DNA of 64,000 bases from Halarcobacter anaerophilus. Lineage in GTDB: Bacteria; Campylobacterota; Campylobacteria; Campylobacterales; Arcobacteraceae. The stretch's first letter is position 1, and the number at the start of each line of letters is the position of its first letter. Position numbers and translations under genes: made by a program. The stretch spans positions 1,798,001 through 1,862,000 of the forward strand of contig NZ_CP041070.1 of the NCBI RefSeq assembly GCF_006459125.1, given 5' to 3'. The notes under the pieces are model-generated. The model searched no databases. It was not told the DNA's origin and was given only the letters and a program-made list of their open reading frames with translations. Of the stretch, positions 4,325-10,581 are shown in pieces.

Positions 4325-5062
4325 ATGACTTTAGAACTTATACTATTCGGACTTACAGCCGGATTTGTTTCAGGCTTTTTCGGCTTAGGCGGAGGAACTG
4401 TTCTAACTCCTATTTTATTTACTGCCGGTTTTGCAATGAAAGAAGCGATTGCAATCTCTATTATGCAAATGGTTTTTAGTTCTATATACGGTTCATTTCT
4501 AAACTCAAAAAAAGCAAAACATATTTTTAAAGACGGAATAACCTTAGGTATAGGAGGCTCTCTTGGCGGACTTTTAAATAGTTTTGTTCATGCTTTAGTC
4601 TCTGATATTTTTTTACAATATGTTTTTATAATAATCATTATTTTCTCGATTGTCAAAATATTCGTATCTCCTGCTGAACATAATGAAGAGGTAAAACAGC
4701 ATAGTAAAATTGTACTTTTAACTGTCGGTTTTATTGTAGGAGTTATTGCAATGAGTATCGGTGTGGGAGGAGCTATAATGTTAATCCCTATTTTAGTCAG
4801 TTTTATGAGATATCCCTTAAAAATAGCAACAAGTCTTAGCTTGTTTTTTGTAATTTTTTCATCGGTTGCAGGTTTTATATCTTTGTCTCTTTCAGGACAA
4901 ATGCCTTTTTATGAAGGTTTGATTATAGGAACTGCTTCTTTAATCGGTGTATTTTTCGGAATAAAAACTAAAAATTTGACAGGAGCTAAAAATTATAAAA
5001 AATCGATTCTGATTATGAATGTTGTAATATTAGGAATAATGGTTTATAAAACAGTTTTATAA
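4325..5062 (+). CDS. TauE/SafE (TSUP) family membrane permease
   Basis: A 245-aa integral membrane protein with about eight hydrophobic segments and two copies of the family's glycine-rich motif: SGFFGLGGGTVLTPIL near residue 17 and MSIGVGGAIMLIPIL near residue 144. TSUP proteins are proposed to move sulfite, sulfoacetate or other small sulfur or organic anions. Being fused directly to cysE (ATG immediately after its stop) hints at a sulfur-related substrate, but that is inference. Its stop overlaps the convergent aconitase-like gene by 6 nt. Confidence 0.85.
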   Translation: MTLELILFGLTAGFVSGFFGLGGGTVLTPILFTAGFAMKEAIAISIMQMVFSSIYGSFLNSKKAKHIFKDGITLGIGGSLGGLLNSFVHALVSDIFLQYVFIIIIIFSIVKIFVSPAEHNEEVKQHSKIVLLTVGFIVGVIAMSIGVGGAIMLIPILVSFMRYPLKIATSLSLFFVIFSSVAGFISLSLSGQMPFYEGLIIGTASLIGVFFGIKTKNLTGAKNYKKSILIMNVVILGIMVYKTVL

Positions 5063-7567
5063 ACCTTTCTTTTCAAAAAAAGAGTTTAATATTCCCCTGT
5101 TTTTATAAAGTTCAAGCTCTTTTTTCGTATCCAATCTTGTTTTTAAATCAATCTCTATTTTAATACCGTTTTTATGAATTTCTGCCTTTACTATAGAGTT
5201 AACTTTTATAAGATTGTCCGAAATTGTTATACTCTCGTCTCCTTTTAATTTTAAAGTTTTTATATCATCTTCAACAAACTCCAAAGGCAAAACTCCGAAA
5301 CTTATCAAATCTTCTTTATATACCTCATCAAAAGATTTTGCAATTACTGCTTTTATTCCTAAAACACCGATACTTCGTGCAGCCCAATAAGAAGAGACTC
5401 CTTTTGCAAAATTCTCTCCTGCAAAAATTACGGAATCTCTATTTTGTTTTTTAAACGCTAATGCCTTGTCATAAATGGATACGATCTCATTATTTTCATA
5501 ATCTTTTGTATATCCGCCCTCTTTTGAAATCATTAAATTTTTAATATCAATACTATCAAAAACTCCTCTTGTCATTACTTCCGCATTTTGTTTTCTATCT
5601 TCAAAAGTTCCATACTCAAAAGATTTTACTTTCATACTCTCCAAATATCTAGCAGCAGGTGAATATAAAGAAATCTGTCCCAAAGGAAAAATCTGTTTTG
5701 TTGAAATATTATCACCGAAAATAGCCAAAATTCCAGCTTTTTGTATTTCAAGTTTTTCTAAAACAGGCTCTTTTTTAAACGTTAAAGCTTGAATATAAGT
5801 AGACTCTTTATCCCAATTATAAAAACTTGAATTTTCAAATTTCAATTTCTGCCAAAACTCATCTCCTCTAAAAATATTTTTATATATATCTTTATACAAA
5901 ATTTTATCAAGCTTTCCAAGATGAGAGGTAACTTCATAAGATTTAGGCCATAAATCAGCTAAATAAGTATCGGCACAAATCTCTTTATTAAATAGATCAA
6001 TATCTATTTTTCCCGTTAAAGAGTATAAAATCACTAAAGAAGCCGACATTTTATAGTTACTTTTTATCAAAGGATTTAACATATCTTCTATTTGTATATC
6101 AGAAGAGATTACCGAACATAGATTTAAATTATTGCTTTTAATCTCTTTTTCAATACTGCTTTCAATATTAAAAATAGAATTATCTTTTTTATAATCAATT
6201 ATGATAAATCCCAACTCTTTAAAATATTTAAGAAAATCCAGTTTTTCCAAATACTCTTTTATAAAAGGCTCTATTACTAAAGAGGCTTTTGTTTTACTGT
6301 TTACTTTTAGTCCTAAAGCAACTGCTTTTTTTGCAATTAATGCTGCATGAGCAAGAATATAAGAGTTTGATTTTAAAAAAGTTGATAAAACAATAGAAGC
6401 GGTTACAATATCTGAATCCTCCAATGATTCTGTTTTATTAAACTTCGGAAAATTTTGCAAACTTTCGATATCCATACTCTCTTGAGGCTTTTTTAAAAAA
6501 AGTACGTTTGCACAGAGTTTAGATAAATCAAATTCAATAACTCTATCATATTCTAGATTCTCATTTTGATAAAAAAGATTCTGTTTTTTTAAATATGTCT
6601 CTATTAACTCTCCGTAATCTTCATTTTCTCTTGTTTCGTCAAAATATTTTATGGTTTTATCGTCAACTGCAAAAAAAGAGCATTTTGCTTCATATTCAAA
6701 AGCCGATTTTGAAATAACTGCCCTATTTTCCAAAGTTAGATATTTTAAACCTTCTCCGTAAAACTCTACTAAACAGTTTTGAACATTTTGCTCTTTTAAA
6801 AGTTTTACCAAACCTGAAACTATATCCCAAGAAGTTACCGTCTCTTTTAACTGTTTGCAAACTTTTACTCCTATTACTTTAGGCAAAGCTAAGAGAAGTT
6901 CGTTTCCCAGCATAACTCCTTGTGCTTTAATAGAATCTACAGACCATCCAAGTACTCCAAAAGAGTTAATCATAGCAGTATTTGTATCCGTTCCTACAAT
7001 AGTTTCCGGATATAAAAAAAATTTATCCTCTTTTTTTTCTATATGTAAAATTGTAGATAAATACTCTAAATTTATTTGATGACAAATACCCGAACCAGGA
7101 GGAATAATTCTTAAATTGGAAAAACTGTTTTCTGCCCATTTGGCAAAGCCGTAACTCTCTTTATTTTTTTCATTCTCTTTTTTTACAATATCTTTATCGT
7201 CAATATCCAAAGAGTCGTCAATAATCATATCAACTAAAATCTCAGGATTTATCTTATTAGCTTCAAGAGCTTCTTTTTTTGCAAAATCACGCATGGAAGC
7301 TAAATCCATAAAAAAGTTAAGGTGTGAAAATCCCTGCATTATCATTCGTGAAGGATAAAAACCGATTTTTTGATTTTTTCTGTTTTCAAAAATATCTATT
7401 ATCTTTGAAAACTCTGTATTATCTTTTGCTTTTCTTAAATTTGCTTCTAAAAGTATCTTTAATACAATAGGCAATCTTCGTAATTTTTCATTCTCTTTAA
7501 TTACTTTGCTAATATCATAAAAATAGAATTTTTCTCCTTCTATTTCAAAACTATTTACTATATCCAA
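5057..7567 (-). CDS. Aconitase-A-fold protein lacking the Fe-S ligands (putative pseudoenzyme)
   Basis: Intact 836-aa ORF that aligns along its whole length with AcnA/IRP1-type aconitases: IIPPGSGICHQINLEYL near 154, YPETIVGTDTNTAMIN near 186, FGDN at 617-620, SPAARYL near 636, and VSSYWAARSIGVLGIKAVIA near 724. Remembered AcnA motifs align without gaps, yet the three cluster cysteines are replaced: SCTNTSNPS reads S-T396-F-L-K, and YGCTTCIGNSG reads Y-K-K460-D-N-S463. Other losses are H118 to D, H196 to N, DH to KQ at 624-625, and SSR to V-S-S at 724-726. Start is TTG at 7567 with AGGG just upstream. It should not carry a normal [4Fe-4S] cluster or be an ordinary aconitase; a structural, RNA-binding or other role is possible. 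Confidence 0.85.
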   Translation of the reverse strand: MDIVNSFEIEGEKFYFYDISKVIKENEKLRRLPIVLKILLEANLRKAKDNTEFSKIIDIFENRKNQKIGFYPSRMIMQGFSHLNFFMDLASMRDFAKKEALEANKINPEILVDMIIDDSLDIDDKDIVKKENEKNKESYGFAKWAENSFSNLRIIPPGSGICHQINLEYLSTILHIEKKEDKFFLYPETIVGTDTNTAMINSFGVLGWSVDSIKAQGVMLGNELLLALPKVIGVKVCKQLKETVTSWDIVSGLVKLLKEQNVQNCLVEFYGEGLKYLTLENRAVISKSAFEYEAKCSFFAVDDKTIKYFDETRENEDYGELIETYLKKQNLFYQNENLEYDRVIEFDLSKLCANVLFLKKPQESMDIESLQNFPKFNKTESLEDSDIVTASIVLSTFLKSNSYILAHAALIAKKAVALGLKVNSKTKASLVIEPFIKEYLEKLDFLKYFKELGFIIIDYKKDNSIFNIESSIEKEIKSNNLNLCSVISSDIQIEDMLNPLIKSNYKMSASLVILYSLTGKIDIDLFNKEICADTYLADLWPKSYEVTSHLGKLDKILYKDIYKNIFRGDEFWQKLKFENSSFYNWDKESTYIQALTFKKEPVLEKLEIQKAGILAIFGDNISTKQIFPLGQISLYSPAARYLESMKVKSFEYGTFEDRKQNAEVMTRGVFDSIDIKNLMISKEGGYTKDYENNEIVSIYDKALAFKKQNRDSVIFAGENFAKGVSSYWAARSIGVLGIKAVIAKSFDEVYKEDLISFGVLPLEFVEDDIKTLKLKGDESITISDNLIKVNSIVKAEIHKNGIKIEIDLKTRLDTKKELELYKNRGILNSFFEKKGL

Positions 7568-7727
7568 AGTGCCCTAACCTTTTTGATTATTTTTAACTGT
7601 ATAAAATAGCAAATGATAGGTTAAGTATTAATTATTTTTAGAATATAACGTCTACGTTGTTTACTTTTGTAATCTTTATTTATAAAAGCAGTATAGATAC
7701 TTTAATTAACTATTATCAAATCTATCT

Positions 7728-7764: not shown

Positions 7765-10581
7765 ATGAATAATACAATTAAAATATTTAATGCAAAAGAG
7801 AATAATTTAAAAAATATAAATTTAGAGATACCGAAAAACAAACTTGTGATTTTTACAGGACTTAGCGGAAGTGGAAAATCTACTCTTGCTTTTGACACTT
7901 TATATGCAGAAGGACAAAGAAGATATATAGAATCTTTATCTGCTTATGCAAGACAATTTTTAGACAAAGTAGGAAAACCCGACGTAGAAAGAATAGAAGG
8001 ATTAACACCTGCAATTGCAATAGACCAAAAAACAACATCTAAAAACCCAAGATCAACGGTAGGAACTATTACCGAAGTTTATGATTATTTAAGACTTCTT
8101 TATGCAAGAGTAGGAAAACAGCACTGTCACAAATGTGGAAAACCTATCTCTCAAATGAGTGCTTCAGATGTAATTGAACAAGTTCTGTCTCTGCCTGAAA
8201 ACTCAAAAATCGTAATTCTTGCTCCTCTTATAAATAGAAAAAAAGGAACCTTTGCAGATCTTTTAGAGAGTTTAAGAGGAAAAGGTTACGTAAGAGCCAT
8301 GATTGACGGAGTTATGGTCAGACTTGATGAAGATATAGTTCTTGCAAAAACTCAAATGCATACAATCAAAGTAGTAATAGACAGAGTTGTAGTAAAAGAA
8401 GAGAATAGAGACAGAATTGCCCAAGATGTGGAAAAAGGTTTAAAAGAGAGTTTTGGAGAACTTGAAGTTGAAATCTTAAATTACGAAGAGCTAGGTTGCG
8501 ACAAACATGTACACTACTCAGAACATATGGCATGTTTTGATTGTAAAATTTCATTTGAACCTCTTGAACCTCTCTCTTTTTCATTTAACTCACCAAAAGG
8601 TGCCTGCCCTTCATGTGACGGGTTAGGAATTAGATATGCCTTGGATATGAAAAAAGTGATAAATGAAGAGTTACCTCTTGAAGACGGAGCTATAAAAATA
8701 ATATACGGCTTCAACAAAGGATACTACTTTAAAATGTTAATTGCCTATTGTAATGCTGCAGGAATTGATATTACCGTACCCTTTAAAGAGTTACCCGACC
8801 ATCAGCAAAAAGCAATACTTCACGGTGGAGTAGAAGAAGCAAAATTTACATGGAAAAGACATAACCTTACAAGAAAATGGGAAGGTATCGTAAAAATTGC
8901 CTATGATATGATAAAAGATGAAAAAGATATGGCAGAGTTTATGACAGAAAAAGTCTGTTCAGATTGTCACGGAAATAGATTAAAACCTTCATCTTTAAGT
9001 GTTTTTGTTGCAGGTAAAACCATATCTGATATTATAAATCAACCAATAGAAGATGCCCATGCTTTTTTCCAAGATGAAAAAAACTTTGAATATTTAAACG
9101 AACAAAACCAAATGATTTCAGCTCCAATCTTAAAAGAGATTAGAGAAAGAATCTTCTTTTTAGATGATGTAGGTTTGGGTTATATCACATTAGGAAGAGA
9201 TGCAAGAACAATAAGCGGTGGAGAAGCTCAAAGAATCAGAGTCGCTTCACAAATAGGTTCAGGTTTGACAGGAGTTATGTATGTACTTGACGAACCCTCA
9301 ATAGGTCTTCATGAAAGAGATACAAATAAACTTATAAAAACATTGAAAGCTCTTCAAGAAAAAGGTAATACCGTAATTGTCGTAGAACATGATAAAGAGA
9401 CAATCAAAGCAGCGGATTTTATAGTCGATATTGGTCCTAAAGCAGGTAAATACGGAGGAGAAGTCGTTTTTGCGGGAACATTGGAGCAGATGAACAAAGC
9501 AAAAACTCTTACTGCACAATACCTAAACGGAGAAAAAGAGATAAATTATGTTCATAACCGACCTCAAAAAGAGTTTATAGAGATAAAAAACGTAAACATA
9601 AACAATATTAAAAACTTGGATGTAAAAATTCCTCTTAAAAATTTAGTATCAATTACAGGTGTATCGGGAAGCGGTAAATCTTCACTTATTTTACAAACGC
9701 TTCTTCCTGTGGCAAAAGAACTTTTAAATCATGCAAAAAGAGTTAAAAAAGTTGACGGAGTCAGCATAGAAGGTTTGGAAAAACTTGACAAAGTTATCTA
9801 TCTTGACCAAAGTCCTATAGGTAGAACTCCTAGAAGTAACCCGGCAACATATACGGGATTGATGGATGAAATCAGAACTCTGTTTTCTAAAACAAAAGAG
9901 GCTCAGCTTAGAGGATATAAAGTAGGACGTTTCTCCTTTAATGTAAAAGGCGGAAGATGCGAAAAATGCCAAGGAGAAGGTGAAATAAAAATTGAGATGC
10001 ACTTTTTACCCGATATTATGGTTAAATGTGATGACTGCCAAGGAAGAAGATATAACGCACAAACTTTGGAGATTTTATACAAAGGTAAAAATATCTCTGA
10101 TGTTCTTAATATGAGTGTAGATGAAGCTTTAGAGTTCTTTACAAAAGTTCCTAAGATCAAAGCTAAACTTCAAACCCTTTCAGATGTAGGACTTGGATAT
10201 ATAACTTTAGGACAAAATGCCGTTACTCTTTCAGGAGGAGAAGCCCAAAGAATAAAACTAAGTAAAGAGTTAAGTAAAAAAGATACGGGAAATACTCTTT
10301 ATGTTTTAGATGAGCCTACAACAGGTCTGCATTTTGCTGATGTTGATAGATTAACAAAAGTACTTCACCATTTAGTAAAAGTAGGAAACTCTGTTCTTGT
10401 AATAGAACATAACCTTGATATAATCAAAAATTCCGATTGGATTATAGATATAGGCCCTGAAGGCGGAAGTAAAGGAGGGAAAGTAATAGCACAAGGAACT
10501 CCTGAAAAGTTAGCGAAAGAGCATAAAAAAACAGGTTCCTATACGGGATTTTATTTAGATAAAGAGATAAATTCAAAATGA
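7765..10581 (+). CDS. uvrA: Excinuclease ABC subunit A
   Basis: Damage-recognition ATPase of nucleotide excision repair. At 938 aa it has two ABC ATPase modules, with Walker A motifs GLSGSGKST (near 32) and GVSGSGKSS (near 632) and signatures ISGGEAQR and LSGGEAQR. Zinc-binding CxxC pairs are visible (CHKC, CFDC/CPSC, CSDC, CEKC/CDDC). Nothing is missing relative to the family. It has its own promoter and overlaps the following DUF309 gene by 4 nt. Confidence 0.97.
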   Translation: MNNTIKIFNAKENNLKNINLEIPKNKLVIFTGLSGSGKSTLAFDTLYAEGQRRYIESLSAYARQFLDKVGKPDVERIEGLTPAIAIDQKTTSKNPRSTVGTITEVYDYLRLLYARVGKQHCHKCGKPISQMSASDVIEQVLSLPENSKIVILAPLINRKKGTFADLLESLRGKGYVRAMIDGVMVRLDEDIVLAKTQMHTIKVVIDRVVVKEENRDRIAQDVEKGLKESFGELEVEILNYEELGCDKHVHYSEHMACFDCKISFEPLEPLSFSFNSPKGACPSCDGLGIRYALDMKKVINEELPLEDGAIKIIYGFNKGYYFKMLIAYCNAAGIDITVPFKELPDHQQKAILHGGVEEAKFTWKRHNLTRKWEGIVKIAYDMIKDEKDMAEFMTEKVCSDCHGNRLKPSSLSVFVAGKTISDIINQPIEDAHAFFQDEKNFEYLNEQNQMISAPILKEIRERIFFLDDVGLGYITLGRDARTISGGEAQRIRVASQIGSGLTGVMYVLDEPSIGLHERDTNKLIKTLKALQEKGNTVIVVEHDKETIKAADFIVDIGPKAGKYGGEVVFAGTLEQMNKAKTLTAQYLNGEKEINYVHNRPQKEFIEIKNVNINNIKNLDVKIPLKNLVSITGVSGSGKSSLILQTLLPVAKELLNHAKRVKKVDGVSIEGLEKLDKVIYLDQSPIGRTPRSNPATYTGLMDEIRTLFSKTKEAQLRGYKVGRFSFNVKGGRCEKCQGEGEIKIEMHFLPDIMVKCDDCQGRRYNAQTLEILYKGKNISDVLNMSVDEALEFFTKVPKIKAKLQTLSDVGLGYITLGQNAVTLSGGEAQRIKLSKELSKKDTGNTLYVLDEPTTGLHFADVDRLTKVLHHLVKVGNSVLVIEHNLDIIKNSDWIIDIGPEGGSKGGKVIAQGTPEKLAKEHKKTGSYTGFYLDKEINSK

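Follow-up and report, generated by a model that had tools for sequence, protein, structure and literature searches.

A probable pseudoenzyme family of the aconitase fold in Arcobacteraceae, with eroded catalytic residues and repeated loss of cluster ligands

The analysed stretch of Halarcobacter anaerophilus DNA (the window; 64,000 nucleotides, positions 1,798,001 to 1,862,000 of contig NZ_CP041070.1) carries an open gene for an aconitase homologue in which the [4Fe-4S] cluster ligands and most active-site residues have been replaced, and which has relatives eroded to different degrees across the family. This protein, here termed pseudo-aconitase, is very probably a pseudoenzyme, as judged from its sequence and those of its orthologues. 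The explanation that we favour, at a probability of roughly 0.55, is that an AcnA paralogue has turned into a non-catalytic apo protein that works by binding a protein partner via surfaces outside the cleft.

Results

A full-length protein of the AcnA/IRP1 type

The pseudo-aconitase coding sequence occupies 5057..7567 on the minus strand, with a TTG start at 7567 and a stop at 5057-5059, and encodes 836 aa. An ORF check found no internal stop in the 836 codons, which confirms the intact frame of the original prediction and assigns it to the minus strand; read on the plus strand, this interval is full of stops. Profile matches to the Pfam Aconitase domain at residues 64-519 (6011..7378, minus strand, 8.2e-74) and to Aconitase_C at residues 656-765 (5273..5602, minus strand, 1e-20) place on one chain both domains expected of an AcnA. 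The protein scored 697.8 bits against the NCBIfam AcnA model PRK09277, above the cut-off of 686, and 682.2 bits against the AcnA equivalog TIGR01341, below the cut-off of 945. Its nearest solved structures are IRP1 (the closest) and IRP2, and human IRP1 aligned with it nearly end to end (2.5e-121), while identity to E. coli AcnA was 35%. The IRP1 alignment runs in two stretches and the protein, at 836 aa, is shorter than E. coli AcnA (891 aa), contradicting the earlier claim of a gap-free alignment to AcnA. These matches indicate that pseudo-aconitase is a full-length protein of the AcnA/IRP1 type. An AlphaFold2 model built with six sequences was poor (mean pLDDT 57).

The signals that might support expression are modest. 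A sigma-70-like match, TTGATA-18-TATACT, lies 122 bp upstream of the start (7690..7719, minus strand); it is a consensus match only (10/12 positions), and one of 24 found versus 16.1 expected. Among the 32 full-length family members described below, 27 have an AGG in the 20 bases preceding the start, as counted by eye, and 26 have a TTG start under a nearest-start rule. An inverted repeat, AACGT-CT-ACGTT, whose pattern is unique in the window, lies at 7647-7658 between the pseudo-aconitase gene and uvrA; in the remaining 31 full-length members, a looser pattern had no match in the 260 bases upstream.

Cluster ligands and active site of the window protein

Pseudo-aconitase has seven cysteines (residues 162, 237, 265, 296, 352, 484 and 531), none of which lies between residues 352 and 484 or at an expected ligand place. 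C435 of E. coli AcnA, the first cluster cysteine, aligns with either Ser395 or Thr396 (6380..6385, minus strand), because pseudo-aconitase has one extra residue there. The CxxC pair (C501/C504 in E. coli AcnA) maps to Lys460-Ser464 (6176..6190, minus strand), a segment without cysteine in which the exact pairing is uncertain because the loop is heavily altered. The ligand loss claimed at the outset therefore stands, while the residues given for it (Thr396, Lys460 and Ser463) require amendment, since residue 463 is Asn, the Ser is residue 464, and Ser395 is also a candidate for the first position.

At 20 scored active-site positions (the equivalent of R580 was unplaceable and is excluded from the counts), 6 residues are kept and 14 changed. 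The changes include Asp118 in place of an active-site His (pig H101; 7214..7216), Asn196 in place of another (pig H167; 6980..6982), Lys624-Gln625 in place of Asp-His (pig D568-H569; 5693..5698) and Val724-Ser725-Ser726 in place of Ser-Ser-Arg (pig S642-S643-R644; 5390..5398), all on the minus strand. Each of these substitutions had been named in the original prediction, and each was confirmed by alignment and a position check. The pig residue equivalences are those that we take to apply, anchored by alignment to motifs of E. coli AcnA. Neither the three [4Fe-4S] cysteines nor the Asp-His, Asp-Ser-His and Ser-Ser-Arg sets expected of an AcnA were found in the protein, and we infer that cluster and activity are both absent.

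Other aconitases in the genome

Four proteins of the genome match PF00330, namely pseudo-aconitase, a presumed LeuC (assigned by size), AcnB and an AcnD-like protein. AcnB (859 aa) has its own CxxC motif, and the AcnD-like protein (863 aa) has all three cysteines and adjoins genes that we take to be prpB-, prpC- and prpF-like. The search for real acn genes elsewhere, proposed with the original prediction, thus returned an AcnB and an AcnD with intact motifs. This content resembles that of Arcobacter butzleri, for which passages of PMC2147049 give acnB and a prpB-prpC-acnD-prpF set, with two aconitate hydratases only. The genome seems not to need pseudo-aconitase as an aconitase. In one relative (G033), a second, true AcnA is encoded at L036:4429-7074 (TIGR01341 1323 bits, three cysteines) besides the eroded copy.

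Orthologues form one clade within the family

Among 104 genomes of the family, counting that of the window, a full-length copy is present in 32. Five others have an incomplete version, which is shortened in G064 and G066 and a fragment in G089, G098 and, cut by a contig end, G088; no orthologue was found in the remaining 67 among the matches listed. Within the genus of the window, 13 of 16 genomes have full-length copies and 2 have shortened ones, with none seen in G057. The full-length frames comprise 783-850 codons without a stop and share 56 invariant columns (start Met counted), and the 31 others are 35-56% identical to the window protein. All 32 fall into one clade with 100/100 support, also when active-site columns are removed.

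Outside the family, a 398-genome sample of the order yielded no member among the matches listed, only a few proteins that score as true AcnA or AcnD-like (matches in G440, G234, G410 and G221 were placed in the tree, and a split match in G449 was left out), and a 298-genome sample of the phylum gave the same picture among the matches listed. A scan of named genomes returned one distant Planctomycetaceae AcnA, and viral contigs returned AcnA only, with no member of the pseudo-aconitase family.

Erosion of the active site proceeds to different depths

None of the 32 full-length members retains all 20 active-site residues, the number kept ranging from 3 (G001, G011 and G054) to 16 (G060), and none retains the Asp-His pair together with the first Ser of Ser-Ser-Arg. 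All three cluster cysteines are kept in three members (G060, G083 and G075) and at least one is lost in 29; none is kept in 11 members (12 in another alignment), and, depending on the alignment, counts in the CxxC loop are 12 or 13 of 32. The erosion is thus widely common to the orthologues, as the check suggested with the original prediction was meant to establish, and an isolated mutation or sequencing error is ruled out by it. Orthologues that keep the three cysteines, which had been named as grounds for refutation, do exist; the isolated mutation that they were held to imply is wrong, given at least four independent losses if regain is barred.

The three members with a full set of cysteines lie in opposite halves of the clade (G060 in one, the G083/G075 pair in the other), so that the simplest reading is that the ligands were present in their common ancestor. 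The family ancestor thus probably had cluster ligands, which were then lost repeatedly. With regain barred, the full cysteine set was lost at least four times and the single cysteines at least 8, 5 and 5 times; with regain allowed, the fewest changes at the single cysteines are 8, 5 and 4. The first Ser of Ser-Ser-Arg, which we take to be the catalytic base, is kept in 1/32 members and the His of Asp-His in 2/32; with regain barred these were lost at least 5 and 11 times, respectively, and the fewest changes are 2 and 3. That the three ligand-bearing members lack both of these residues suggests that catalysis was lost before the cluster, although the change counts do not establish a single early loss on the stem. 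In the shortened copies of G064 and G066 (622 and 668 aa), most of residues 352-564, including the ligand-bearing part, is missing in frame. These two group with G054 (support 91, in a quick tree that leaves the order of the forks open), and their deletion may be one event.

Locus and inheritance

In the window and in many relatives, the pseudo-aconitase gene is flanked by a convergent gene at 4325..5062 (plus strand), presumably for a TauE/SafE-like transporter, and by a divergent gene at 7765..10581 (plus strand) that we take to be uvrA; the former is the neighbour at most orthologous loci and the latter at many. In other relatives further genes are inserted on one side. One or both neighbours lie within 1.5-2.5 kb of the gene in 29/32 genomes with full-length copies and in 5/5 with shortened or fragmentary ones, and in G011, G091 and G095 the TauE-like gene is farther off on the same contig. 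In six genomes where no orthologue was seen (G057, G079, G081, G082, G014 and G084), coordinates place the two neighbours 102-131 bp apart. The uvrA match of G034 (contig 9, 179461-182271) crosses one in-frame TAA.

For 18 genomes, the UvrA and pseudo-aconitase trees have 11 of 15 splits in common and differ in 4; 200 shuffles gave 0.28 common splits on average and never more than 2. The median ratio of pseudo-aconitase to UvrA distances is 8.0, so that pseudo-aconitase evolves about 8 times faster than UvrA; relative to G067, for example, identity is 87% for TauE, 93% for UvrA and 54% for pseudo-aconitase. Tree and locus together indicate that inheritance is largely vertical at one locus, and a recent horizontal import is ruled out by the common locus and by a gene tree that largely tracks UvrA.

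An operon partner was also sought and rejected, the upstream neighbours being variable, with no conserved partner across loci. In G058, G065, G091 and G094, a pair of genes that we take to be catalase-like and ankyrin-like precedes the pseudo-aconitase gene on its strand, and G098 has the ankyrin part alone; these cases are too few to count as a conserved partner. Among relatives, such genes lie at L046:9232-11142, L047:8379-10289 and L053:10033-11950.

Selection and shifted conservation

Across five close pairs, dN/dS of pseudo-aconitase was 0.062, 0.139, 0.180, 0.192 and 0.196, compared with 0.061-0.146 for AcnD and 0.024-0.036 for UvrA. In all 34 pairs listed, which are non-independent, it was at most 0.375, a value reached in pairs with the G098 fragment. 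These ratios indicate that the constraint on pseudo-aconitase is real but relaxed, and weaker than that on UvrA. The family is therefore orthologous, constrained and stripped of catalytic residues, the combination that marks a pseudoenzyme. As originally predicted, the protein appears to be a diverged pseudoenzyme under constraint and not a decaying copy, a view that agrees with dN/dS of 0.06-0.20, with 32 full-length frames free of stops and with the presence of AcnB and AcnD elsewhere.

Conservation within the protein has shifted. In 11 true AcnA rows (the Paracoccus row and the AcnA row of G234 being left out), 19 of the 20 active-site columns show no variation. At the twentieth, the AcnA of G440 (L057) has Ser for Arg (E. 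coli R534). Mean identity within the pseudo-aconitase family was 0.31 at the active-site columns versus 0.54 at 221 other AcnA-invariant columns (p = 5e-4), in a comparison which, like the other column statistics here, sets a young clade against a broad AcnA set and uses columns that are correlated through the tree. The active-site value was 0.33 when the two CxxC columns were removed (p = 0.003), and with 6 AcnA rows the test gave 0.31 vs 0.55 (p = 4e-4). Conversely, codons 1-60 (7388..7567, minus strand) are more conserved than in true AcnA, with a mean column identity of 0.51 vs 0.38, a difference of +0.13 against -0.13 elsewhere (p = 1e-7). Residues 521-620 are level with AcnA or slightly higher (+0.05, +0.02).

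Discussion

The proposed explanation begins with an AcnA paralogue that would have been passed down largely vertically at one locus, losing its catalytic residues and, independently in several lineages, its [4Fe-4S] ligands. What selection would now maintain is the fold together with surfaces away from the active-site cleft, the first 60 residues in particular, and the constitutively apo, non-catalytic protein would bind a protein partner through those surfaces. A role in protein contact is favoured because the conserved part lies largely outside the cleft; the cleft itself has varied freely, which makes substrate binding or an IRP1-like role there unlikely. Both the protein nature of the partner and its identity are guesses. 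A more specific version, which we put forward tentatively and with the odds somewhat against it, is a dedicated apo-aconitase family whose functional part is no longer the active site but a new binding surface that includes the N-terminal 60 residues. The same version, as tentatively, has stages coexisting today: eroded catalysis with three ligands, ligands lost, and the ligand region deleted.

Against the protein-contact reading stand the 67/104 genomes without an orthologue among the matches listed and the at least two with fragments only, from which pseudo-aconitase appears to be dispensable. The same absences, together with the fragments in G089 and G098 and the shortened copies in G064 and G066, would fit a functionless relic in slow decay, with the frame open by chance or through selection against misfolding, as would the roughly eightfold UvrA distance, the TTG starts in 26/32 members and dN/dS values of up to 0.375 with the G098 fragment. 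We consider such a relic unlikely, however, given dN/dS of 0.06-0.20 in the close pairs and no more than 0.375 in the 34 non-independent pairs, stop-free frames of 783-850 codons in 32 genomes and 56 invariant columns. A permanently apo, IRP-like RNA-binding regulator, locked in the RNA-binding state by cluster loss, is rather unlikely, even with IRP1 and IRP2 as the closest solved relatives. Such a regulator would have parallels, as parts of the literature report that M. tuberculosis apo-AcnA binds IRE-like RNA (PMC7527780) and that IRP2 is without cluster and aconitase activity (PMC4056636), and some IRE-contact places are well kept among the 32 members (Trp782 in 30, Pro682 in 26, Ser681 in 25 and Asp781 in 18). 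Yet of the 11 IRE contacts that the accessible portion of PMC4184891 reports for IRP1, the window protein keeps two or three (Pro628, Trp728 and an alignment-dependent Thr396) and has Arg269 changed to Lys, Ser371 to Leu, Lys379 to Ser, Asn439 to Leu, Ser681 to Phe, Arg713 to Lys, Arg780 to Ser and Asp781 to Tyr; Lys or Arg stands at the Arg780, Arg713 and Arg269 places in 15, 17 and 23 of 32 members, respectively. Seven bacterial AcnA/AcnD rows, used as a control, keep 9 of the 11 contacts, with Ser371 and Lys379 absent. The window protein thus does not carry the contact set of an IRP, and the early suggestion that it might bind RNA as apo-IRP1 does finds no support for an IRP1 mode.

Two further possibilities retain some chemistry. 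Three members keep all three cluster cysteines but have neither the His of Asp-His nor the first Ser of Ser-Ser-Arg. They would fit an ancestral protein that carried a cluster and sensed iron or redox state without catalysis, a role preserved in these three and later lost elsewhere. We regard this as very unlikely, as it leaves the constraint on ligand-less members such as the window protein unexplained. Aconitase relatives that act on other substrates are familiar (AcnD, LeuC and homoaconitase), and the retained fold with a few cleft residues (pig D100 in 28/32 and D165 in 26/32) could suit a new cluster-free enzyme with a different substrate. This is highly improbable, however, because most of the 20 active-site positions have no common replacement, the residue varying from member to member, and the catalytic Ser is kept in 1/32.

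Aconitase is a textbook example of an enzyme that takes on a second job upon cluster loss. The family described here appears to have dropped the enzyme and kept the protein, losing the ligands several times over. Its surviving stages make the order of losses (catalysis, cluster, ligand-bearing region) testable, and would reveal which part of the aconitase fold has a job independent of chemistry. They also carry a warning for annotation, as the window protein passes one broad NCBIfam AcnA model and yet should not be called AcnA. A literature search, mostly outside subscription journals, found no report of such a bacterial pseudo-aconitase family, which appears to be unreported.

Compared with known systems, pseudo-aconitase resembles bacterial AcnA (E. 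coli AcnA; TIGR01341, NF006757) in domain order and near full-length alignment, and differs from it in having no cluster ligands, 6/20 active-site residues and a score below the TIGR01341 cut-off. AcnD of the methylcitrate pathway, a paralogue in the same genome with a full-length aconitase fold, keeps three cysteines and 19/20 of the listed residues (Q72 is His) and stands on a separate long branch in the tree. Human IRP1, the closest solved structure, and M. tuberculosis AcnA, whose apo form has a second job according to the available part of PMC7527780, possess ligands and switch states, whereas pseudo-aconitase has no ligands and so should not switch. The known precedent for a cluster-less, inactive aconitase homologue is human IRP2, as described in the sections of PMC4056636 at hand; pseudo-aconitase would share this condition with it, while mostly lacking IRP1-type RNA contacts and, being bacterial, presumably having reached it in a separate lineage.
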